64,000 bases of DNA. It comes from Oceanobacillus indicireducens (lineage in GTDB: Bacteria > Bacillota > Bacilli > Bacillales > Amphibacillaceae). This document shows, in pieces, positions 7,100-16,658 of the stretch; the first letter of the stretch is position 1; each line of letters begins with the position of its first letter. The DNA lies in the NCBI RefSeq assembly GCF_014647195.1, contig NZ_BMOS01000003.1, positions 128,412-192,411 on the forward strand, written 5' to 3'. Under the pieces are notes generated by a model. It was not told the DNA's origin. It saw only the letters and a list, made by a program, of their open reading frames with translations, and did no database searches. The position numbers and the translations under genes were made by a program.

Positions 7100-8443
7100 T
7101 TATCCGTTTTCTCTTTCCCCTATCATAATCCAGCCCCTTCGGATAGAAAATAGGATAATGAGAATGGACAATCCGACCGTTATCGTGACGAACAACCACG
7201 GACGGCCATGAAGAATGAACATTGGCGAGAAGGTAATGAGCATAATTTCAACTGGCGCGATTGGTATATAGGCCAAGCCATATTCATCAAGCGTCTTACT
7301 CTCCATTTTTGGATCAACTATCCGCAGCAAAGCAATCGCCATTGCCACTGCACCAGTAATCCAGCCCCAAGTAAAGATACCTTTTTCAAACCAATTCTCT
7401 TGGAAATAATTCTTAGAAACGACTTTATAGAAAAAGTAAGAGAAGAGGATTCCGAATATAATCAGGATTGAGAATGGCACAATGTTCTCCACTACGACTG
7501 TTAAGTTAATCGATGCGATTCCGAAAGCTACCAAGATATCTGTCGCACTTCCGCTCACTTTTGATATAACATTTTTATCAATATAATGATCCACTTCTGC
7601 TTTTTGAATCATAATATTTAAAAATAAACCGACTAAAAACGCTAAAGAAAACGCTGGAATCGTAAGTTGCGGAAATAACCGCTCACCAAATTGACTTAAA
7701 AAATAACCCCCGGTTGCTACAAGCAGCACGAGCGCCAAGTGAAATACAAGGGGATCGATGGAAATACTCGAAACTGTATCGTTCCCCATCGAAGTTCTTT
7801 TCTCTTTTGGCAACAGACCGGTTCGGTATTCTGTAGGCAGTTCTTCAAACCGGCTAATATAGTTCGCTTCACCTTTATTTGCCGCAGAACGGATTAAAAG
7901 CAACCCTACTCCAATAGCGACAATTGCACCAATTGTTGCGGAAGTCATCGCAAGGGAAGTCGCTTCTTCCCATCCCTGCTGTTGAAAAGCATCGCCAAGT
8001 GCTGCAGCAGTACCATGTCCCCCGACAAAACCAGCAGCTAATAATAAACCAAATCCATCATGGACATGGAATGTAGGTACGAGAAAAATTAGTGCAAACA
8101 TTAAACCTAGTCCCCACATCAATAACATGATGATTTGCGAATAGGACCAAAAACCACCAACCTTGTCCATGACTTTCCGCCAATCGAACTTCTCTGATGA
8201 CAACGGTATGGAAGCGAAAACAATAGCAATTAAAACACTCGGATATGTTCCGATAAAATCAGAAAACGGGATGATTTGAAAACCATTCGGTCCCAGTATC
8301 AAGCCCAAAATTCCGGCGATAATGCTTGCCGGCATAAAAGAACGTTGCAGAAATATTACCCTTGCACGTAAAACCATTCCTACTAACAATAACAACGATA
8401 ATAGTCCTAAATCCGTCAGAACATCCCATAGAGTAAACTCCAT
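7100..8443 (-). CDS. GltS-type sodium/glutamate symporter family protein
   Basis: This 447-aa polytopic membrane protein of about 10-12 segments shows GltS-family hallmarks: an N-terminal ASIIAGILGLILGP loop, the re-entrant GFVGGHGTAAALGDAF segment, and a second half with GWITGAVAMAIALLRIVDP. GltS proteins couple glutamate uptake to sodium. The ATG at 8443 has AAAGGAG 7-8 bases upstream; a longer frame to 8497 adds only unlikely residues. It is monocistronic, with the terminator at 7057-7095. Glutamate as substrate is inferred from the family; related anions are possible. Confidence 0.82.
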   Translation of the reverse strand: MEFTLWDVLTDLGLLSLLLLVGMVLRARVIFLQRSFMPASIIAGILGLILGPNGFQIIPFSDFIGTYPSVLIAIVFASIPLSSEKFDWRKVMDKVGGFWSYSQIIMLLMWGLGLMFALIFLVPTFHVHDGFGLLLAAGFVGGHGTAAALGDAFQQQGWEEATSLAMTSATIGAIVAIGVGLLLIRSAANKGEANYISRFEELPTEYRTGLLPKEKRTSMGNDTVSSISIDPLVFHLALVLLVATGGYFLSQFGERLFPQLTIPAFSLAFLVGLFLNIMIQKAEVDHYIDKNVISKVSGSATDILVAFGIASINLTVVVENIVPFSILIIFGILFSYFFYKVVSKNYFQENWFEKGIFTWGWITGAVAMAIALLRIVDPKMESKTLDEYGLAYIPIAPVEIMLITFSPMFILHGRPWLFVTITVGLSILIILFSIRRGWIMIGERENG

Positions 8444-8619
8444 ATATGTAACTCCTTTCTCTTGGTGTAGGATAATATAGGTTAAAAAGAAGCACACATT
8501 TTAATGTGTATCAAATTATAAAAAAACATTCCGCCTGAAGAAAAACACCGCTCGAATATTATAACATACCTTTTTTAGTCATGTCTTTCGTGACGCGATT
8601 TCGGCAATAGTCGTCAAAG

Positions 8620-9393
8620 CTAAAGCGTGAAAAAACTTCTCGTGTTTTCATAAATTTGCTGATAAACCGCTGTTCTATCGATTTGTTTTAAGTGTGCAAT
8701 CACCTTTATCGACTCATGCAACATTTTGGGATGAGTGCGTTTATTTTCGAAAGGACCGGAAAATGGCCAAGGACCGTCCGTTTCCACCATTAATTGTTCA
8801 AGTGGATATTGTTTGGCTATTCGCTGAATTTTAGGCTTATATACGATATCCGGCGTTACAGAAATAAAGTAGCCATTCGTAAGCATCCGTTGCATTGTTT
8901 TATCATCTCCTTTAAACCAATGAAAATGCGCCTTATCGATCGAATGTTTCTCAAGTAAAGAGCAAACAACTGGTGCATCTTCATAAACGGCATGGAGAAT
9001 AATTGGTTTCTTTGTTCGCTTGGCAAGCATGATGAAATGCTCGAGCAGGTTGATATATTCTTCAAGTTTAAGATCTGTCTCCTGTCTTAAATAATAAGGT
9101 AGCCCTACTTCTCCAATTGCAACCATGTCTTGTTCCTGTGTTAAGATAAATTCCGTCAACTGGACTATTTCTTTTTCTGAAGGCAAAGTTTGTTCCGGAT
9201 GATATCCAAAGGCCGGTTGGATAGTGCAATATGTTTTGGATAAAGCGAGATTTGATTTTGCGGACTTGAGATTTTGTGAAACGGTAATAAGGCCTTCTAT
9301 CTGATGCTTGTCCAATGACTCGATTATTTGCTTTTGTTCTTCAGTGGTGTAAAAATCAAGATGGATATGAGCATCGATCAGTTTGGTTTCCAT
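8620..9393 (-). CDS. TatD-family metal-dependent hydrolase
   Basis: This 257-aa amidohydrolase-fold protein shows the metal-binding motifs of the TatD family in order: DAHIHLD (8-14), GYHPE (83-87), IGEVGLPYY (112-120), ILHAV (151-155) and ETDGPWPF (204-211). TatD relatives act as metal-dependent DNases or on unknown esters. It is shorter and more divergent than the housekeeping YabD/TatD type, closer to the accessory TatD-like group. It is isolated between the symporter and the catabolic operon terminator. Its substrate cannot be predicted. Confidence 0.8.
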   Translation of the reverse strand: METKLIDAHIHLDFYTTEEQKQIIESLDKHQIEGLITVSQNLKSAKSNLALSKTYCTIQPAFGYHPEQTLPSEKEIVQLTEFILTQEQDMVAIGEVGLPYYLRQETDLKLEEYINLLEHFIMLAKRTKKPIILHAVYEDAPVVCSLLEKHSIDKAHFHWFKGDDKTMQRMLTNGYFISVTPDIVYKPKIQRIAKQYPLEQLMVETDGPWPFSGPFENKRTHPKMLHESIKVIAHLKQIDRTAVYQQIYENTRSFFTL

Positions 9394-9424: not shown

Positions 9425-9461
9425 CAAAAAGAAGTGAAAACAATGGTCTGTTTTCACTTCT
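9425..9461 (-). terminator. Terminator of the putative pantothenate operon
   Basis: AGAAGTGAAAAC...GTTTTCACTTCT, a 12-bp perfect stem on the minus strand followed by TTTTTG. It lies 6 bp after the aldehyde dehydrogenase stop codon. Confidence 0.9.
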
Positions 9462-9466
9462 GTATT

Positions 9467-10912
9467 CTATCTATACTTTACTGCCACGTTTTTTAACGTC
9501 GTGTAGTTATCCAGTGCTGCCCAACCTTTTTCTCTGCCGAACCCGCTCTTTTTGTAGCCGCCAAATGGCATTTGAACACCACCCCCAGCACCGTAATTGT
9601 TGATAAACACCTGACCGGAATCAATTCTGCTTGCTAAGTAATGAGCGCGGTTAATATCTTTCGTCCAAACGCCGGCAACTAACCCATAATCCGTACTGTT
9701 TGCAAGTTCTAACGCTTCTTCCGTGTCCTTGAACGTAAACACGGTAAGCACCGGACCAAATACCTCCTCTTGGGCAATTCTACTGTGTGGACTTACTCCA
9801 TCGACAATCGTCGGCTCGATATAAAATCCATTTTCAAATCCTTCGACAGTCATTTGATTGCCACCAAAAAGAATTTCTCCCTCTTCCCGAGCAATATTGA
9901 TCATCCCCATCACCCGGTCAAATTGCCTTTCATTTAAAATCGGACCAATATCTTTATCCTCGATACCTGCACCGATCGTTAGTTTACCGAACTGTTCAAT
10001 CACCTTTTTCAAAAATTCATCTTTGAATGATTCCTCAACGAGCAACCGTGCCCCTGCAGAACAAGTCTGGCCTGCATTTTGTATAATCGAACGGACAACG
10101 CCGGCAACGGTTGCTTCTACATCACAATCGGCAAACACGATATTCGGAGACTTCCCACCAAGCTCTAACGTGGCTGGCACGACATTCGCCATCGCTGCTT
10201 GACCAACGGAAATTCCTGTAGCAACCGAACCAGTGAATGTTAGCTGATTAATAAGTGGGTGACCTGCTAAAGCAGCTCCTGCTTCATACCCGTAACCTGT
10301 TACATGGTTGAACACTCCAGCAGGTAAGTCTAACTCAGCAAAAAATTCACTGAGGCGCAGCGCGGTAAGCGGTGTATCCTCTGCGCTTTTTACAACAACC
10401 GTATTCCCTGTCGCAATTGCTGCCGCAACACTTCTAGAAATAATTTGCAGCGGATAATTCCATGGAATGATATGGGCCGTCACCCCAACCGGTTCACGCA
10501 CAACATAATCAAGCAATCCGTCTTGGATTGGAAGCGTATCCCCCATTACTTTATCAGCTGCTCCACCATAAAAACGGAAGTAGCGGATCGCCGCATCCAC
10601 ATCAGCATACGCTTGGGAGAGCGGCTTTCCAACATCCGTTGTTTCAAGCTCCGCTAATTCATCCTTACTTTCCTGCATTTTATCGGCAATTGCAAATAAA
10701 AGATCTCCCCGGTCAAATGCCGAATACGAACGCCATTCCTCCGTGCGAAATGCAGCAGCTGCAGCTCGAACAGCCCGGTCCACATCTTCCTTCGTACCTC
10801 GAGGAATCTCACCGATTTTCTCACTGCTTGACGGATTCAGCACATCAATTACCGCTTCGTTCGCACTTTTCGTCCATTCTCCATTGATATACATTTCATA
10901 TGTTTTCACCAA
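9467..10912 (-). CDS. NAD(P)-dependent aldehyde dehydrogenase (candidate 4-dehydropantoate dehydrogenase)
   Basis: This 481-aa class I ALDH is full length. Visible landmarks are the IIPWNYP cofactor motif (149-155), TFTGSVATG (226-234), the general base Glu250 in ELGGKSP, and nucleophile Cys284 in NAGQTCSAG. Such enzymes oxidise an aldehyde to an acid with NAD(P). It is the last gene of a six-gene minus-strand operon, 20 bp after the SDR stop, and is followed at once by a strong terminator. In context it is the natural candidate to oxidise 4-dehydropantoate (aldopantoate) to 3,3-dimethylmalate. That role is inferred; the family assignment is secure. Confidence 0.9.
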   Translation of the reverse strand: MVKTYEMYINGEWTKSANEAVIDVLNPSSSEKIGEIPRGTKEDVDRAVRAAAAAFRTEEWRSYSAFDRGDLLFAIADKMQESKDELAELETTDVGKPLSQAYADVDAAIRYFRFYGGAADKVMGDTLPIQDGLLDYVVREPVGVTAHIIPWNYPLQIISRSVAAAIATGNTVVVKSAEDTPLTALRLSEFFAELDLPAGVFNHVTGYGYEAGAALAGHPLINQLTFTGSVATGISVGQAAMANVVPATLELGGKSPNIVFADCDVEATVAGVVRSIIQNAGQTCSAGARLLVEESFKDEFLKKVIEQFGKLTIGAGIEDKDIGPILNERQFDRVMGMINIAREEGEILFGGNQMTVEGFENGFYIEPTIVDGVSPHSRIAQEEVFGPVLTVFTFKDTEEALELANSTDYGLVAGVWTKDINRAHYLASRIDSGQVFINNYGAGGGVQMPFGGYKKSGFGREKGWAALDNYTTLKNVAVKYR

Positions 10913-10932
10913 GTGTCTCCCCTTTTTTGAAA

Positions 10933-11682
10933 CTATATATTTCTCCCGCCATCAACATGTAAAACAGCTCCGGTTATCATTTCTGCCGCATCAGACAATA
11001 AATATTTCACCGATTTAGCGATGTCTTCCGGTTGCAGTAATTTGCCAAGTGGTACACTGCTTTCAAAGACTTCCTTTTTGGTATCGTCAACACTGCTACC
11101 CACAGCAGTAAACTCACCAAGCATTGACGTGTCAGCTGGTCCCGGATGGAGCACATTCGCGTTCACTTGATATGGCGCAAGTTCTAAAGCTAATGCTTTT
11201 GTAAAGGACTCTACGGCGCCTTTCGAAGCAACATAAGCCTGCAGTCCAGGTCGTGGCCGTGTCGTCGAAACAGAACCGATATTGACAATTTTTCCGCTTC
11301 CCTGTTCCTTCATATAAGCAGCGGCTTCCCGGCACGTTAAAAAGATACTAGTCATATTCACATCGATTATTTTTCGATATTCGGCAAGGCTGCAGTCTTC
11401 TATCGGTGTCGCATGTTGCGCAATCCCATGCACATTCGCAAGTCCATCGATAGAACCAAATTCACTCTTTGTCTGCGCAAAAATATGCTGTACAGCAGCT
11501 TCATTAAGCAAATCTGCTTTCATAGCTTTAAAACGGGGATTCTCCTCAAGTTCAGCTAAAGCTGCAATATTTAAATCGCACCCGACAACGTTTGCACCTG
11601 CTTCGAGTAAATGTTCCACCGTAGCTCGCCCCATACCGCCGCCAGCACCTGTTACAATGACTGTTTTTTTTGTTATTGTCAT
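10933..11682 (-). CDS. Short-chain dehydrogenase (candidate pantoate 4-dehydrogenase)
   Basis: This 249-aa classical SDR has the TGAGGGMG nucleotide loop (11-18), a catalytic Ser in IVNIGSVS, and YVASKGAVESF with the YxxxK dyad near 152-156. The C-terminus ends in TGAVLHVDGGRNI. The usual NNAG is NVHG, a modest departure. Its ATG overlaps the stop of the preceding dehydrogenase by 4 bp, indicating translational coupling. In the proposed pathway it would oxidise the 4-hydroxyl of pantoate to the aldehyde. Other hydroxy-acid or polyol substrates cannot be excluded. Confidence 0.88.
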   Translation of the reverse strand: MTITKKTVIVTGAGGGMGRATVEHLLEAGANVVGCDLNIAALAELEENPRFKAMKADLLNEAAVQHIFAQTKSEFGSIDGLANVHGIAQHATPIEDCSLAEYRKIIDVNMTSIFLTCREAAAYMKEQGSGKIVNIGSVSTTRPRPGLQAYVASKGAVESFTKALALELAPYQVNANVLHPGPADTSMLGEFTAVGSSVDDTKKEVFESSVPLGKLLQPEDIAKSVKYLLSDAAEMITGAVLHVDGGRNI

Positions 11683-12755
11683 AAAAGTCCTCCAATTCGT
11701 TCCAGTTTGTCACTAATTGCATCGCCAACATCTGCTGTTGTCGCATTTCCGCCAATATCTGGCGTCAGTACTTTTTTCTCAACTAACACTTCTTCAATCG
11801 CCTGTAAAACGAGATCATGGAGATCTTTCCTTCCAAGATGTTCGAGCATTAGGGCAGCTGACCAAATTTGAGCGATTGGATTTGCGATCCCTTTTCCTGC
11901 AATATCAGGCGCAGAACCATGAACTGCTTCAAACATCGAAGGAAATTCACCCAACGGATTAATATTTCCAGATGGCGCAAGACCAAGACCACCGACAATT
12001 GCTGATCCAAGATCAGATAAAATATCCCCGAAAAGGTTCGAAGCTAATACGACATCAAAGGTTTCGGGACGTTGGACAAAGTAAGCAGCAAGTGCGTCGA
12101 TATAATATCTTTCATAATCAATATCTTTATTTTCCGCTGCCACTTCTTCCACAAGTCGATCCCAAAACGTCATCGTATGAAGCATGACGTTCGATTTCGT
12201 TGCATTCGTCACTTTTTCCCTGCCATTTGCACGAGCATAGTCATAAGCAAATCTAGCAATCTGTTCGACACCCTGCCGTGTCATCACCATGTTCTGTAAC
12301 GCCATTTCTCGGGTTTCCCCATGAAACATCGCTCCACCTGATTCTGTATATTCTCCTTCACTATTTTCCCTGACAATAACGAAATCAATCGGCACCTCTT
12401 TTTTCAATGTGCTTTCCAGGCCCTGCAACAGTTTAACCGGGCGAAAATTAATAAACTGCTGGAAGTTTTTCCGTATTGGTAAAATTAATTCCCAAATCGA
12501 AACTGGATCTGGCACTCGAGGATCCCCAATCGCACCGAATAAAATGGCATCAAATTCTTTTAACTGCTCAAGTCCATCTTCTGGCATCATTTTCCCGTGC
12601 TCTAAGTAATATTCACTATTCCAATTAAAATTCTTCGTTTTAAAACGGAAGCTAGAATCCATCTCAGCAATTCGTTCAAGGACTTTTACCGCTTCCCTTG
12701 TCACTTCTGGACCGATCCCATCTCCGGGTAATACCGCAATCTTGTATTCTCTCAT
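11679..12755 (-). CDS. Tartrate/D-malate dehydrogenase-type decarboxylating dehydrogenase (candidate 3,3-dimethylmalate dehydrogenase)
   Basis: This 358-aa member of the isocitrate/isopropylmalate dehydrogenase superfamily begins MREYKIAVLPGDGIGPEV. The segment GAIGDPRVPDPVSIWELILP and the VREN-SEGEYTESGG motif place it in the tartrate dehydrogenase/D-malate dehydrogenase (YcsA/DmlA-like) branch rather than LeuB. These enzymes oxidise 2R-hydroxy acids and decarboxylate the beta-keto product. The ATG at 12755 is preferred over 12764 because AGAGG is 9 bases upstream. In context it could convert 3,3-dimethylmalate to 2-ketoisovalerate. D-malate or tartrate is the alternative substrate. Confidence 0.85.
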   Translation of the reverse strand: MREYKIAVLPGDGIGPEVTREAVKVLERIAEMDSSFRFKTKNFNWNSEYYLEHGKMMPEDGLEQLKEFDAILFGAIGDPRVPDPVSIWELILPIRKNFQQFINFRPVKLLQGLESTLKKEVPIDFVIVRENSEGEYTESGGAMFHGETREMALQNMVMTRQGVEQIARFAYDYARANGREKVTNATKSNVMLHTMTFWDRLVEEVAAENKDIDYERYYIDALAAYFVQRPETFDVVLASNLFGDILSDLGSAIVGGLGLAPSGNINPLGEFPSMFEAVHGSAPDIAGKGIANPIAQIWSAALMLEHLGRKDLHDLVLQAIEEVLVEKKVLTPDIGGNATTADVGDAISDKLERIGGLL

Positions 12756-12788
12756 CTCTTTCATCCTCTTTTACAAAGTCTATTATAT

Positions 12789-14282
12789 TTATTGCTTCTG
12801 CATGGATTGTATTTTAGTAACATGGATATCCGGCTTCCTTCCATGGTTCCACTTCCCATCGAGCGCTCGTTCAAGCTGAGCACCGAGCTGAAGCAACAGA
12901 CCGTCGTTTCCTTGCTTGGCGAGTGCGTGCATTCCAAACGGTAAACCATTAGGAAGTTGTGCCACCGGAAGTGAGATTCCCGGGATCCCGCAAATATTTG
13001 CAATCGACGTATAGGAGAAAATACTCCAGAGGTTATGGAACCAGTCATAAACAGAAGGATTATCACTTATCGTCAAGTATTCTGTCGTTCCAACAAGTGG
13101 CGTCGGAAGTGCCATCGTCGGTGTCAGAATGATATCCCATTTTTCAAAGTATGCAGCTGTTGACCTGGATAGCTGGTTAAAAAGCGCTTGCATTTTTGCC
13201 CGTTCACCATATGTTGCATGTCTTCCTTCCTCCCACACCCGGATACACATCGGTTCCACTAATTCAGCAGGTGGTGTTTCTAAATCTTTCCCTTCTAAAA
13301 TTTCAGAAATCGTTTGGGAAAAATTCATGATATATGCCTCCGTCTGTGCCTTATATGCAGCATGGAAATCAATATCCGGAATCGTCCATTCGACGTCATG
13401 TCCTAATTCTTCGAGGAATTTTGCTGTTTTTTTCAGTTCGGCAACAATTTCAGGTGTCGCTTGATAGTTGCCCCATTCATGCGATACCGCAATCCGCAAT
13501 TTCCCCGGATCCTTTTTAATTAGTTCCGTATAAGATTCATCCGGGTGCCAAAACGGCATGAACTCACCAGGTGCCCCGCCTCTCGTATGATCGACAAAAG
13601 CGGCCATATCCCGAATTGTACGAGTCTGAGCTCCTTGACTCGACACAACACTCATTAAATCGGAACCATTGGGAGCCAAGGAAAAAATTCCTCGGGATGG
13701 CTTGAGTCCGATATTTCCATTCACTCCCGCCGGGATTCGAATTGAGCCCCCACCATCTGTCGCATGAGCAATTGGAACAATGCCAGCCGCAACAGAAGCA
13801 GCCGAGCCTGCCGAAGAACCGCAAGTCGTGTAATTAAGATTCCACGGGTTCCTCGTCACATAGAGATCCGGATTTTCCGCGGAACTGCATAGACCTAGTT
13901 CGGGAGTCGTTGTTCTTCCCATAATATTCAGACCTGCATCGCGAATCTTTGTCGTTAGAAAACTATCCTTTTCTGCTCGATTTCCTTGCATAAGTAAAGA
14001 ACCCATCTCCTGAAGTCGACCTTTTATCGTCGGTCCCAAGTCCTTCATCAGAAATGGAACACCGGCAAACACGCCATCCGGGTTCATTCCGTCTAGCAGT
14101 GGATCTTCCACAACATCGTCAAATACTTCAATAACTGCACTAATTTCAGGATTCAATGCCTCAATCCCTTTTGCTGCTTGACGCGCGGCTTCCTGTGGGG
14201 TCACTTCTTTTTCCCGAATCAACTCGGCTAAACCTGTCGCATCAAGTTCTGCCCATTCTTCCCAACTCAGTAATTCTTTCAC
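12789..14282 (-). CDS. Amidase-signature hydrolase (candidate pantothenase)
   Basis: This amidase-signature enzyme of about 497 aa has the full Ser-cisSer-Lys triad: Lys80 in FLMKDLG, Ser156 in CGSSAGSAAS and Ser180 in DGGGSIRIPAG, with the 24-residue spacing typical of the family. Family members cleave amide bonds; this one resembles the 6-aminohexanoate-cyclic-dimer-hydrolase branch. GTG at 14282 is chosen because GGGGAG lies 8 bases upstream; GTG at 14291 would overlap the Shine-Dalgarno. It follows the PanF-type transporter after a hairpin. In context it would split imported pantothenate into pantoate and beta-alanine. No GatB/GatC partner is present, arguing against a GatA role. Confidence 0.85.
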   Translation of the reverse strand: MKELLSWEEWAELDATGLAELIREKEVTPQEAARQAAKGIEALNPEISAVIEVFDDVVEDPLLDGMNPDGVFAGVPFLMKDLGPTIKGRLQEMGSLLMQGNRAEKDSFLTTKIRDAGLNIMGRTTTPELGLCSSAENPDLYVTRNPWNLNYTTCGSSAGSAASVAAGIVPIAHATDGGGSIRIPAGVNGNIGLKPSRGIFSLAPNGSDLMSVVSSQGAQTRTIRDMAAFVDHTRGGAPGEFMPFWHPDESYTELIKKDPGKLRIAVSHEWGNYQATPEIVAELKKTAKFLEELGHDVEWTIPDIDFHAAYKAQTEAYIMNFSQTISEILEGKDLETPPAELVEPMCIRVWEEGRHATYGERAKMQALFNQLSRSTAAYFEKWDIILTPTMALPTPLVGTTEYLTISDNPSVYDWFHNLWSIFSYTSIANICGIPGISLPVAQLPNGLPFGMHALAKQGNDGLLLQLGAQLERALDGKWNHGRKPDIHVTKIQSMQKQ

Positions 14283-14356
14283 AAACCTCACTCCCCTTTT
14301 CTTTATCTCTATGTTGCAAATCCCATCTATTCCGGGGATCCGATCTATTCATAAGA

Positions 14357-14386
14357 GGCATGCCTGATTTTAAAAACAGGCATGGC
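14357..14386 (-). promoter_or_regulatory. Intercistronic hairpin between panF-like and amidase genes
   Basis: CATGCCTG (14359-14366) and CAGGCATG (14377-14384) form a perfect 8-bp stem with no T run behind it. It is therefore more likely an mRNA-stability or processing element separating the transporter pair from the four enzyme genes than a terminator. Confidence 0.5.
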
Positions 14387-14390
14387 CTAC

Positions 14391-15860
14391 CTATGCTCCT
14401 TTGTTAATATTTTTTGTTGGAAACTCGTACGCTTCTTCCTTAAAGATCAAACTGAAGACAACAAACACAATCAAGGATAGGAAAACCGGCACGGTAACCG
14501 TATGGACGCCAAACAAGTCGCCATATGCCTGGTTATAATAATGAATAGCGATATAAGAACCGATCCCTGTAATCATCGATGCGATGGCACCAGTCTTGTT
14601 CGCATATTTCCAGTAAAGCCCCATAATGAGCGGCCACATGAAGGCTGATTCCAAACCACCAAAAGCAAATAAGTTCAGGTAAATAAGTAATTCAGGCGGA
14701 CTGATTGCAAGAATGAAAGCGACAATCCCAATTACTCCAGTAACTCCCATACTTACATTTTTAATCTGTTGATCTGTTGCTTTCGGTTTCATATAGTTGA
14801 TATATACGTCTTTTACAACGGATGAACTAACGAGTAATAGAAGCGAATCCACTGTTGACATGATTGCTGCAAGTGGTGCAGATAAGATGACTCCGGCGAG
14901 CCATGGAGGCAACACTTCTAAAGCAACGAGCGGAATTACCTGGTCCGCTACTTCAACACCAGGCAATACTGGACGGGAAAATACCCCAATCAGATGCATG
15001 CCAAGCATAATCGTCCCAGTGACAATTGTTCCAATGATGATCGCGCGGTGCATCGCTGTCGAATTACGATAGGACATCGCACGGACTGCGATTTGCGGAA
15101 GTGCTACAACTCCTACTCCAACAAGGATCCAATAAGACGAAACGTAAGCAGCCGTCAAGGAACCGTCATGACCGAATGGGGTAATTAAATTCGGATTAAT
15201 TGCGACTAAATCAGCGAATATATTGGATAACCCACCTCCGGCAATAATAACCGCTGCAAGGAGTACCAATGTACCAACGACCATAATAACCCCCTGGACC
15301 GCATCCGTTACTACAACGGCTCGGAACCCACCAACCGTAACATAAACGAGTACCGAAATCGTGAAAATAAATAGAGAGCCAATATAACTAATTCCAGTTA
15401 ATGACTGGATTAAATAAGCTCCTCCAACCCACTGAGCCGCCATCGCAGCGAACATAAAAACAATAATACTAAATGCAGAAAGCAGCACAACCGTCTTGCT
15501 TTTATACCTTTCTTTTAAAAAGTCAATTAGCGTAACCGCATTATACCGCCTTGCAACGATTGCGAACTTTTTCCCAAGAATAAGCAACACGAAATACCCG
15601 GTCGCGAGCTGCGTCATTGCAAGCAGCACCCAACCAAACCCAATCGTATAGGCAGCACCTGGGCCGCCAAGGAAGCTTGACGCACTTCCATATGTAGCAA
15701 CCATCGTCATCGCGAGCAGTAAGCCACCGAATTCTCTGCTGCCTAGAAAATAATCACTCAGGAACCCATCCGCTTCCGATAATCTTCTACTGGACCACAT
15801 ACCGATAATAAAAATTACGACAAGAAAAATTAATAAAGGGGTAACTACCGCCCAGTTCAT
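14391..15860 (-). CDS. Sodium/pantothenate symporter-type SSS transporter (PanF-like)
   Basis: This 489-aa sodium:solute symporter has about 13 hydrophobic segments. It carries PanF-like features: SDYFLGSREFGGLLLAMTM near residues 35-55, FLGGPGAAYTIGFGW, and VTVGGFRAVVVTDAVQG at 174-190. PanF imports pantothenate with sodium. Two contexts support PanF: it is translationally coupled (4-bp overlap) to a YhdT-type partner, exactly as yhdT-panF in enterobacteria, and it is followed by genes matching pantothenate breakdown. The SSS family is broad, so substrate identity is inferred. Confidence 0.85.
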   Translation of the reverse strand: MNWAVVTPLLIFLVVIFIIGMWSSRRLSEADGFLSDYFLGSREFGGLLLAMTMVATYGSASSFLGGPGAAYTIGFGWVLLAMTQLATGYFVLLILGKKFAIVARRYNAVTLIDFLKERYKSKTVVLLSAFSIIVFMFAAMAAQWVGGAYLIQSLTGISYIGSLFIFTISVLVYVTVGGFRAVVVTDAVQGVIMVVGTLVLLAAVIIAGGGLSNIFADLVAINPNLITPFGHDGSLTAAYVSSYWILVGVGVVALPQIAVRAMSYRNSTAMHRAIIIGTIVTGTIMLGMHLIGVFSRPVLPGVEVADQVIPLVALEVLPPWLAGVILSAPLAAIMSTVDSLLLLVSSSVVKDVYINYMKPKATDQQIKNVSMGVTGVIGIVAFILAISPPELLIYLNLFAFGGLESAFMWPLIMGLYWKYANKTGAIASMITGIGSYIAIHYYNQAYGDLFGVHTVTVPVFLSLIVFVVFSLIFKEEAYEFPTKNINKGA

Positions 15861-16162
15861 CCTTTCATCACCTCATCTTCCTTTGTATCTTCATCGTCAT
15901 CTTCTAGTGAAATGTCTTTCAAGAAAAACTTAACAACTAAAATGACAACAACAAACATCACTAGCGTTCCAAATATTAAACTGTAAAAAATCCACGCAGG
16001 AAATCCCATAACATATGTATATTCCTCAGGTGGCTTCGAACCAAGTCCATAGGCAAAACCATACCACCAGATAAAGTTGAATATAGCAAGCCCGCATCCT
16101 ATAAGCGCCTCCCTATTTGCAACAGAAAAGCGCCATTCCTGTTTTTTCTTTTTCCCTTCCAT
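15857..16162 (-). CDS. YhdT-family small membrane protein
   Basis: This 101-aa protein has two hydrophobic helices (about 20-42 and 58-80) and a highly acidic C-terminal tail, SLEDDDEDTKEDE. It matches the DUF997/YhdT family, which is habitually encoded directly upstream of panF. The aromatic segment NFIWWYGFAYGLG is typical. ATG at 16162 is chosen because GGGGAGGAG lies about 7 bases upstream. It is the first gene of the operon. It probably assists the symporter, but no function is established. Confidence 0.8.
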   Translation of the reverse strand: MEGKKKKQEWRFSVANREALIGCGLAIFNFIWWYGFAYGLGSKPPEEYTYVMGFPAWIFYSLIFGTLVMFVVVILVVKFFLKDISLEDDDEDTKEDEVMKG

Positions 16163-16418
16163 ACCAACACTCCTCCCCATAAACATGAACTATTTTTGTC
16201 AAAAATATCAACTTTAAGTCTATTATACTTATAATAATAACTATTTCCAGTATACAAATTGTTCAGACTTAGAGCTTGACATGACAAATATTTTCCGAAT
16301 AAAAAAGAAGCGAGACGTTTTGATTATTGTCCCACTTCTTATCATAAAGCAACTTCCCTTCAACGTGGGGAATGATTGCTTTTTTTATTTTTTCACTGCC
16401 GTTTGAACCAGATTCGAG
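16163..16418. other. Intergenic region with hairpins upstream of the putative pantothenate operon
   Basis: This AT-rich stretch should hold the minus-strand operon promoter, but no convincing -35/-10 pair was found. It includes an imperfect hairpin GAAGCGAGAC/GTCCCACTTC (about 16310-16340). A second, AAAGCAACTTCCC...GGGGAATGATTGCTTTTTTT (about 16344-16388), has terminator form on the plus strand and may end leftward transcription only weakly. Confidence 0.4.
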
Positions 16419-16658
16419 TTCGTTCGGGTGATTAAAGAGTTTTAATCACTCGAAGGAGATAAATTTGAAATTCGTTTGGGCGATTATAGGTGCTCTAATC
16501 GACCGAATGAGGTAGGATTGAACTCGTTTGGGCGATTACAAGCCTTCTAATCAACCGGATGAGATAGATTACAACTCATTCATGATTAGGAGTGCTCTAA
16601 TCGACCGGATGAGCTTGAGTTGAACTCGTTCGGGCGATTAGAAGGTTCTAATCACCCA
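16419..16658. repeat. Tandem array of 52-bp hairpin repeats (array 2, 5 copies)
   Basis: Units start at 16419, 16471, 16523, 16575 and 16625 (period 52, one copy of 50). Each opens with TTCGTTTGGGCGATTA-like sequence and contains TAATCGACCGAATGAG-like sequence about 10 bp later, forming a hairpin. Copy 1 has TGATTA/TAATCA where copy 2 has CGATTA/TAATCG, a paired base change that keeps the stem. No protein is encoded. The primary sequence is unrelated to array 1. Confidence 0.9.

Follow-up and report, generated by a model that had tools for sequence, protein, structure and literature searches.

A conserved six-gene operon of Oceanobacillus indicireducens with a predicted role in pantothenate degradation

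Introduction

What is degraded by an operon that joins a PanF-type symporter with an amidase and three dehydrogenases? The question was raised by positions 9467-16162 of a 64 000-nucleotide stretch of the Oceanobacillus indicireducens genome (assembly GCF_014647195.1, contig NZ_BMOS01000003.1, positions 128 412 to 192 411 of the forward strand; the whole stretch is called the window). A preliminary description of this DNA had read the locus as a candidate pantothenate (vitamin B5) degradation operon. Biochemically, the breakdown of pantothenate has been known since the 1960s. In Pseudomonas, it proceeds through pantothenase, pantoate 4-dehydrogenase, 4-dehydropantoate dehydrogenase and dimethylmalate dehydrogenase (EC numbers in Table 1).

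The genes are less well documented. In a passage of a 2023 paper, the identity of the pantothenase protein is called unknown (PMC10393543). EC 1.1.1.84 and EC 1.2.1.33 are given as orphan activities in a passage of a 2007 sample survey (PMC1940265), and 'pantothenate amidohydrolase', where it appears in a passage of PMC4231531, is a name used only in a metabolic model. Among open-licence full texts searched with pathway and enzyme names, none was found to describe a gene cluster for the degradation of this vitamin. The comparison reported here makes it probable that the window operon is a catabolic operon converting pantothenate into beta-alanine and 2-oxoisovalerate.

Gene content and layout of the operon

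The unit is transcribed from the minus strand, from 16162 down to 9467, in the order YhdT, PanF, amidase, tartrate dehydrogenase/DmlA-like decarboxylating dehydrogenase (TDH), short-chain dehydrogenase/reductase (SDR) and aldehyde dehydrogenase (ALDH) (Table 1). All four pathway enzyme classes and an importer are thus encoded together in one operon. The genes, the two 4-bp junction overlaps (YhdT/PanF at 15857-15860 and TDH/SDR at 11679-11682) and the single terminator, a hairpin followed by a T run, were all present as first described. The YhdT open reading frame (ORF) spans 15857-16186, with the ATG at 16162 as the likelier start and GGGGAGGAG just upstream of it. The amidase ORF spans 12789-14291; here the GTG at 14282 is the likelier start (upstream AAAGGGGAG), and the Oceanobacillus alkalisoli orthologue agrees. 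Between 7000 and 19000, 29 promoter-like sites were observed against 28.3 expected in shuffled sequences, and the site at 16222-16249 is thus only a candidate.

Table 1. Features of the predicted pantothenate operon (window coordinates)
Feature	Position	Strand	Support
YhdT-like DUF997 membrane protein, PanF partner	15857..16162	-	PF06196, 106.8 bits (cut-off 26)
PanF-type Na+/solute symporter, predicted pantothenate importer	14391..15860	-	TIGR02119, 686.4 bits (curated cut-off 328.05)
Amidase-signature hydrolase, predicted pantothenase (EC 3.5.1.22)	12789..14282	-	PF01425, 266 bits
TDH/DmlA-like decarboxylating dehydrogenase, predicted 3,3-dimethylmalate dehydrogenase (EC 1.1.1.84)	11679..12764	-	TIGR02089 (tartrate dehydrogenase), 501.7 bits (cut-off 470.4)
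SDR oxidoreductase, predicted pantoate 4-dehydrogenase (EC 1.1.1.106)	10933..11682	-	PF13561; NF005559; fixed operon place
Aldehyde dehydrogenase, predicted 4-dehydropantoate dehydrogenase (EC 1.2.1.33)	9467..10912	-	PF00171, 560 bits; fixed operon place
Intrinsic terminator-like hairpin, 14 pairs, T-rich tail	9430..9461	-	Hairpin followed by a T run
Sigma-70-like promoter candidate TGGAAA-16-TATAAT	16222..16249	-	Sequence pattern only

Curated-model and Pfam scores bore out the family assignments made earlier for the symporter, the amidase, the decarboxylating dehydrogenase, the SDR and the ALDH. The Pfam matches of the amidase, SDR and ALDH are strong, and no equivalog scored over its cut-off for these three proteins among the best 25 NCBIfam models of 26, 234 and 46, respectively. 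The SDR narrowly passes a broad subfamily model, NF005559 'glucose 1-dehydrogenase' (219.9 versus 215 bits). In the amidase, Lys80, Ser156/157 and Ser180, which we take to be the Lys/Ser/Ser catalytic triad of the amidase-signature family, are invariant in 23/23 aligned sequences.

Conservation of the operon

The operon was compared across 159 genomes of the family (the window's own being G000); G numbers designate genomes and L numbers loci, for which unequal stretches of about 14-52 kb were fetched. The amidase had some match at E<=1e-50 in 125 genomes. Orthologues of at least 74% identity were present in 12 of the 159, namely the window's genome and 11 others, one with two copies; the remaining matches had at most 37%. 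Among these 11, seven keep the full six-gene order (G057, G058, G060, G089, G110, G150 and G153). The nearest named relative found was O. alkalisoli, whose amidase is 90% identical and which has all six genes in order. The six-gene arrangement is not due to chance: its order is kept in eight further loci, at 57-94% identity per protein. Of 398 genomes sampled across the class, three had an amidase match at E<=1e-140, and two of these three belong to the 159 above.

Incomplete forms were also found. G154 has YhdT-PanF-amidase-TDH followed by only an SDR fragment, and ALDH was not found in the stretch; at positions 7756-9293 of this locus (L055) the operon breaks off at a 98-aa SDR fragment, after which comes an SSS-type transporter. 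G083 has two amidase copies of the same score (L053 and L054) with transposase-like genes, identified by eye, around them, and a PanF-TDH-SDR-ALDH unit elsewhere with no hydrolase in its slot.

Exchange of the hydrolase between PanF and TDH

Searches with TDH and PanF revealed genomes among the 159 in which the two genes lie about 1.25-1.5 kb apart without an amidase orthologue. The place of the amidase is filled there by an M20 hydrolase of about 410 aa, and the flanking genes are unchanged. The one M20 member scored passes the ArgE/DapE family model TIGR01910 (268.7 versus 217.6 bits), and its best solved match is succinyl-diaminopimelate desuccinylase. The order YhdT-PanF-M20-TDH-SDR-ALDH occurs in eight genomes (G047, G048, G050, G052, G069, G101, G144 and G152). 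G043 has the M20 operon with TDH split into two ORFs, G149 has it without ALDH, and in G070 PanF-M20 and an importer-TDH-SDR-ALDH unit (see below) are consecutive on one contig. The M20 gene lies away from the TDH-SDR-ALDH trio in G068 (about 96 kb) and G078 (about 9 kb).

M20 orthologues of at least 71% identity were found in 13/159 genomes, and no genome has both hydrolases. The operon-type TDH group (about 55% identity or more, a threshold set after viewing the list) comprises 27/159 genomes, 26 by search and G043, whose split TDH fell below the cut-off, by hand. The group is present in 25 of the 25 hydrolase carriers and in 2 of the 134 non-carriers (G056 and G143). With shared ancestry ignored, Fisher's test gives p = 3.7e-27 for the hydrolase-TDH association, and the chance of zero amidase/M20 overlap within the 27 genomes is 5e-6. 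Two unrelated amide hydrolases fill one slot; therefore, the shared step should be amide hydrolysis of what PanF imports. The neighbourhood comparison proposed with the preliminary description thus favours pantothenate as the substrate, since PanF is retained when one hydrolase gives way to another, unrelated one.

These counts bear on another reading, in which only the cleavage that yields beta-alanine matters, for CoA salvage, and the acids oxidized by the three dehydrogenases are unrelated ones, the genes having come together by chance operon shuffling. It would fit proteobacterial amidase orthologues that lack the trio, as well as a passage of PMC10393543 in which labelling is taken to mean that E. 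coli, Alphaproteobacteria and Actinobacteria cleave pantothenate and reuse the beta-alanine. The constant company of the TDH group, found with either hydrolase and nearly confined to carriers, makes this reading highly improbable.

A GntR-type regulator and a palindrome in the relatives

A GntR-type gene lies divergently beside the unit in 15 loci. No model scored over its cut-off for the encoded protein, the nearest being PdhR (89 versus 330 bits). Six of these loci are of the amidase form (L048, L049, L050, L055, L056 and L058), five of the M20 form (L079, L082, L083, L084 and L091), two have a tripartite ATP-independent periplasmic (TRAP) importer (L075 and L088) and two carry diverged trios (L073 and L090). 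Between the GntR gene and the unit, a 20-bp palindrome like TACATCATACGTATGATGTA was found in 15/15 loci with 15-20 matches of 20; the pattern was derived from L083, which hence has 20/20 by construction. The weakest copies, in L048 and L088 (15/20 each), had base-shuffle fractions of 0.030 and 0.005. The palindrome also occurs without an adjacent GntR gene in L051 (17/20) and L089 (15/20). One GntR regulator and its palindrome are common to the amidase, M20 and TRAP forms.

The 27 genomes of the TDH group were scanned with at most three mismatches. Twenty of them contained palindrome sites, 26 in total, against 3 sites for a reversed control pattern. Thirteen sites precede the unit at GntR loci, one precedes the second G047 copy, one the G057 operon (L051), and 11 lie elsewhere. 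No palindrome (11-13/20) was present in the window, L009, L047 or the M20 loci L076, L077, L078 and L080, all of them without an adjacent GntR gene, nor was it found upstream of lone amidases (L052, L053, L057 and L062) or lone M20 genes (L102 and L103).

Genes of beta-alanine and pyrimidine catabolism near the hydrolase

Genes of beta-alanine or reductive pyrimidine catabolism lie near the hydrolase or operon in 9/25 carriers (G047, G057, G060, G078, G079, G080, G149, G153 and G154), as counted in stretches of unequal length. NCBIfam models were run on the neighbours in G060 and G153 and identified the dihydropyrimidine dehydrogenase PreA (455 versus 335 bits, in an incomplete copy), dihydropyrimidinase (510 versus 393), a hydantoinase/carbamoylase-type amidase (419 versus 204), a PRK07678 aminotransferase (748 versus 488) and a CoA-acylating methylmalonate-semialdehyde dehydrogenase (MMSDH; 623 versus 448). 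PreT-like and PucR-like neighbours were named by resemblance, no model among those shown being over cut-off. Reductive pyrimidine breakdown yields beta-alanine. The hydrolase gene would neighbour these catabolic genes because beta-alanine is the product common to both.

The same neighbourhoods could be read differently: the amidase could be an N-carbamoyl-beta-alanine hydrolase or a similar enzyme, and the operon an extension of reductive pyrimidine degradation. The lone amidases of G079 and G080 do have PreT-, PreA-, dihydropyrimidinase-, aminotransferase- and MMSDH-like neighbours (model names from the G060/G153 copies). However, those clusters encode a separate relative of the hydantoinase/carbamoylase type (33-34% identity in G079/G080, 74% in G057 and 77% in G154, with the query from G153), and a ureidopropionase-type role of the amidase was set aside on this ground. 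PanF, SDR, ALDH and TDH moreover have no place in the pyrimidine pathway, and we give this reading almost no weight.

In the window's genome, the genes for an aminotransferase (67%), an MMSDH-like protein (84%) and a PucR-like regulator (46%) are clustered on contig C11, away from the operon. The adjacent aminotransferase and MMSDH-like genes may provide the route for the second product, beta-alanine, for which their specificity is predicted. A panC gene scores over its cut-off in the same genome and, because of its presence, the organism is very likely a pantothenate maker.

TRAP importers beside the trio

In five genomes (G068, G069, G070, G083 and G149), the trio is accompanied by a TRAP importer, either instead of PanF or in addition to it. 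In G068 and G149, the importer is followed by TDH-SDR-ALDH in an operon that lacks both PanF and a hydrolase. In G069 and G083, the TRAP genes, YhdT-PanF and the trio form one continuous block, which in G069 includes M20 as well, and G056 has a diverged TRAP importer with TDH alone. The four best solved matches of the TRAP binding proteins of G083 and G149 are, for each, 4pdd, 4nq8, 4p9k (the same sequence as 4pak) and 4pdh, presumably pantoate/D-erythronate binders. Pantoate and D-erythronate are among newly found TRAP ligands in a passage of PMC5812351, and structures bound to pantoate or erythronate are mentioned in a passage of PMC11668362; the entry codes do not appear in either passage.

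GlcD-like and Fe-S subunit-like oxidase genes lie near TRAP forms in L074, L085, L086 and L087, L085 having only the third, associated gene. The GlcD-like copy of L087, the only one scored, reached 516 bits, below the cut-off of 568.

The dehydrogenase, the symporter and the identity of the substrate

A tree of 49 TDH-type proteins separated 28 operon-type rows from 20 family paralogues and E. coli DmlA with a support of 100/96. The 28 rows are those of the window, of the operon and trio members, and of G056 and G143. The tree was midpoint-rooted, and DmlA has a long branch and unusual composition; the window TDH did not group with it. On the substrate-side helix, residue 94 is Ile in 28/28 operon-type proteins and Leu in 20/20 paralogues, and residue 96 is Pro in 28/28 and Lys or Arg in 18/20, respectively. 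Pro96 was dropped as a pathway-specific mark, as enzymes encoded in other clusters, in Rhizobium and Cereibacter, have it too. A reading of the trio as a pure tartrate/D-malate route was weakened by the tree split from DmlA and the paralogues.

Over 469 aa, the window PanF and E. coli PanF share 48.8% identity. PanF proteins at least 73% identical to that of the window occur in 24/159 genomes, of which 19 are hydrolase carriers and five (G111, G115, G116, G147 and G148) have neither hydrolase nor the TDH group. Six carriers are without a PanF at this level; two of them, G057 and G149, have a more distant operon PanF (58% and 68%). Another common PanF (63-68%) was followed in five loci with none of the operon enzymes nearby, as is expected for plain vitamin uptake.

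Both proteins enter into a third alternative, in which the operon degrades some other hydroxy-acid amide, for instance an N-acyl amino acid with a tetronate-like acid half, taken up by a PanF-family symporter of another specificity. On that view, tartrate or malate would be the compound that the SDR, ALDH and TDH produce and then decarboxylate. The TIGR02089 family takes its name from tartrate, a similar trio in Rhizobium adjoins L-threonate dehydrogenase and 3-oxo-tetronate kinase, and the closest solved relatives of the TRAP binding proteins linked to the trio presumably belong to a group that binds erythronate as well as pantoate. In addition, a second PanF-like protein of the window's genome adjoins an amidohydrolase-type gene. 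This second protein is only 38.5% identical to E. coli PanF, however, less than the operon PanF; the operon TDHs group apart from DmlA and the paralogues; and the nine carriers listed above have genes of beta-alanine or pyrimidine catabolism close to the hydrolase. Taken together, these points make the alternative unlikely.

The locus of the second PanF-like symporter (L060, G000:C15, 7823-11341) has YhdT-like and amidohydrolase-type genes adjoining it and, named by eye, M20-like and racemase-like genes nearby. This neighbourhood perhaps represents an N-acyl amino acid route.

Discussion

We consider the window operon probably to be a pantothenate catabolic operon. This reading is built on observed gene content, gene order and conservation, on the slot swap, on co-occurrence and, in relatives, on a regulator site. 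From the sequences we infer every substrate assignment, which of the SDR and ALDH acts first, and the completeness of the pathway. YhdT-PanF would import pantothenate with Na+, and the amidase would hydrolyse its amide bond to (R)-pantoate and beta-alanine. The 4-CH2OH group of pantoate would be oxidized by the SDR to the aldehyde, 4-dehydropantoate, which the ALDH would convert into (R)-3,3-dimethylmalate. Oxidative decarboxylation of the latter by the TDH-type enzyme would give 2-oxoisovalerate and CO2. Beta-alanine would be consumed by the omega-aminotransferase and the CoA-acylating semialdehyde dehydrogenase whose genes lie on contig C11, and 2-oxoisovalerate would enter valine/leucine metabolism or pantoate synthesis. 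The degradation of pantothenate proposed in the preliminary description gains support from the comparison, through the hydrolase swap around a retained PanF, the beta-alanine and pyrimidine genes in 9/25 carriers and the association of the trio with a TRAP importer in five of the genomes. A consistent pairing of the enzymes with a different transporter and substrate was not observed, although the trio also occurs with TRAP transporters and, judged by eye, with peptide-type ATP-binding cassette (ABC) transporters.

Several observations weigh against this reading. Scanned at up to three mismatches, the whole genome of the window has no palindrome site, and it has no close GntR protein (best 28%). 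The second PanF-like symporter of this genome also passes TIGR02119 (508 bits, scored with its neighbours in frame); because this protein passes too, beside an amidohydrolase-type gene, the TIGR02119 score does not fix the substrate. Four of the 25 hydrolase carriers have no operon PanF (G068, G078, G079 and G080), the amidase is apart from the trio in 3 of the 12 amidase genomes (G079, G080 and G083), and the M20 genes of G068 and G078 lie beside genes resembling, by eye, those of peptide-type ABC transporters. Outside the family set, the third class-wide genome, G376, has an amidase of 67% identity without PanF, TDH or ALDH relatives and with no SDR above 24%. Plasmids of the proteobacteria Methylobacterium, Variovorax, Neorhizobium and Thioclava carry amidase orthologues of 60-67%; in the five loci examined, of eight found with at least 60%, there were no PanF, TDH or ALDH relatives nearby, and one had an SDR of 24%. 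In the Rhizobium tetronate/threonate cluster there is a trio resembling TDH-SDR-ALDH with about 37% identity, and other plasmid clusters contain paired TDH and ALDH genes (about 41-50%) but no SDR. A plasmid search with the dehydrogenase trio (best 40 of 4182 records, five loci examined) gave tetronate-type and other clusters and no PanF operon. Plasmid searches with single proteins gave 493 records for TDH and 17 for PanF.

Diverged TDH-SDR-ALDH trios lie beside peptide-type ABC transporter genes in L073, L089 and L090, and lone M20 genes lie beside such genes and a P1-peptidase-like gene in L102 and L103, all named by eye. They perhaps constitute an ABC-fed form of the pathway.

For the operon family as a whole, the balance tips towards a broader proposal. 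It would encode the whole pathway from pantothenate to 2-oxoisovalerate, with the amidase and M20 proteins as interchangeable pantothenases, TRAP importers for free pantoate and one GntR regulon joining the forms, so that pantothenate-making cells, such as the window's organism with its panC, would burn the vitamin as food. If the pantothenate reading is right, testable genes are at hand for all four steps of a pathway whose pantothenase protein was still called unknown in 2023, and PanF is used for feeding instead of vitamin supply. The amidase would become a candidate enzyme for the cleavage of pantothenate deduced for Alphaproteobacteria, where its 60-67% orthologues lie on plasmids, and the conserved regulator site would help to locate the pathway elsewhere. 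Of the new findings, those of most use are the exchange of hydrolases, the modular TRAP form and the common palindrome.

Two features flank the operon. Between it and the upstream gene, Dps-like by eye, positions 16472-16653 hold imperfect direct repeats with a 52-bp period (3.6 copies, 70% matches) and inverted repeats. The second gene downstream (7100-8497) encodes a Na+/glutamate symporter-family protein (PF03616, 68.6 bits) without an NCBIfam match.

Comparison with known systems

In E. coli, yhdT and panF form an overlapping gene pair like that of the window. The E. coli pair is located between accBC and prmA, without catabolic genes, whereas the window's pair heads an operon of predicted catabolic type. 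The window TDH, over the TIGR02089 cut-off, belongs to the same family of decarboxylating 2-hydroxy-diacid dehydrogenases as E. coli DmlA and the Pseudomonas tartrate dehydrogenase (which we take to be entry 3flk), but it stands on the other side of the 100/96 split from DmlA. The solved TRAP binders 4pdd, 4nq8, 4p9k/4pak and 4pdh are nearest to the TRAP proteins of the relatives, while the window's operon has no TRAP importer. The pantothenate pathway of Pseudomonas is known from enzyme work; every enzyme class of that pathway is encoded in the window operon, together with a matching importer.

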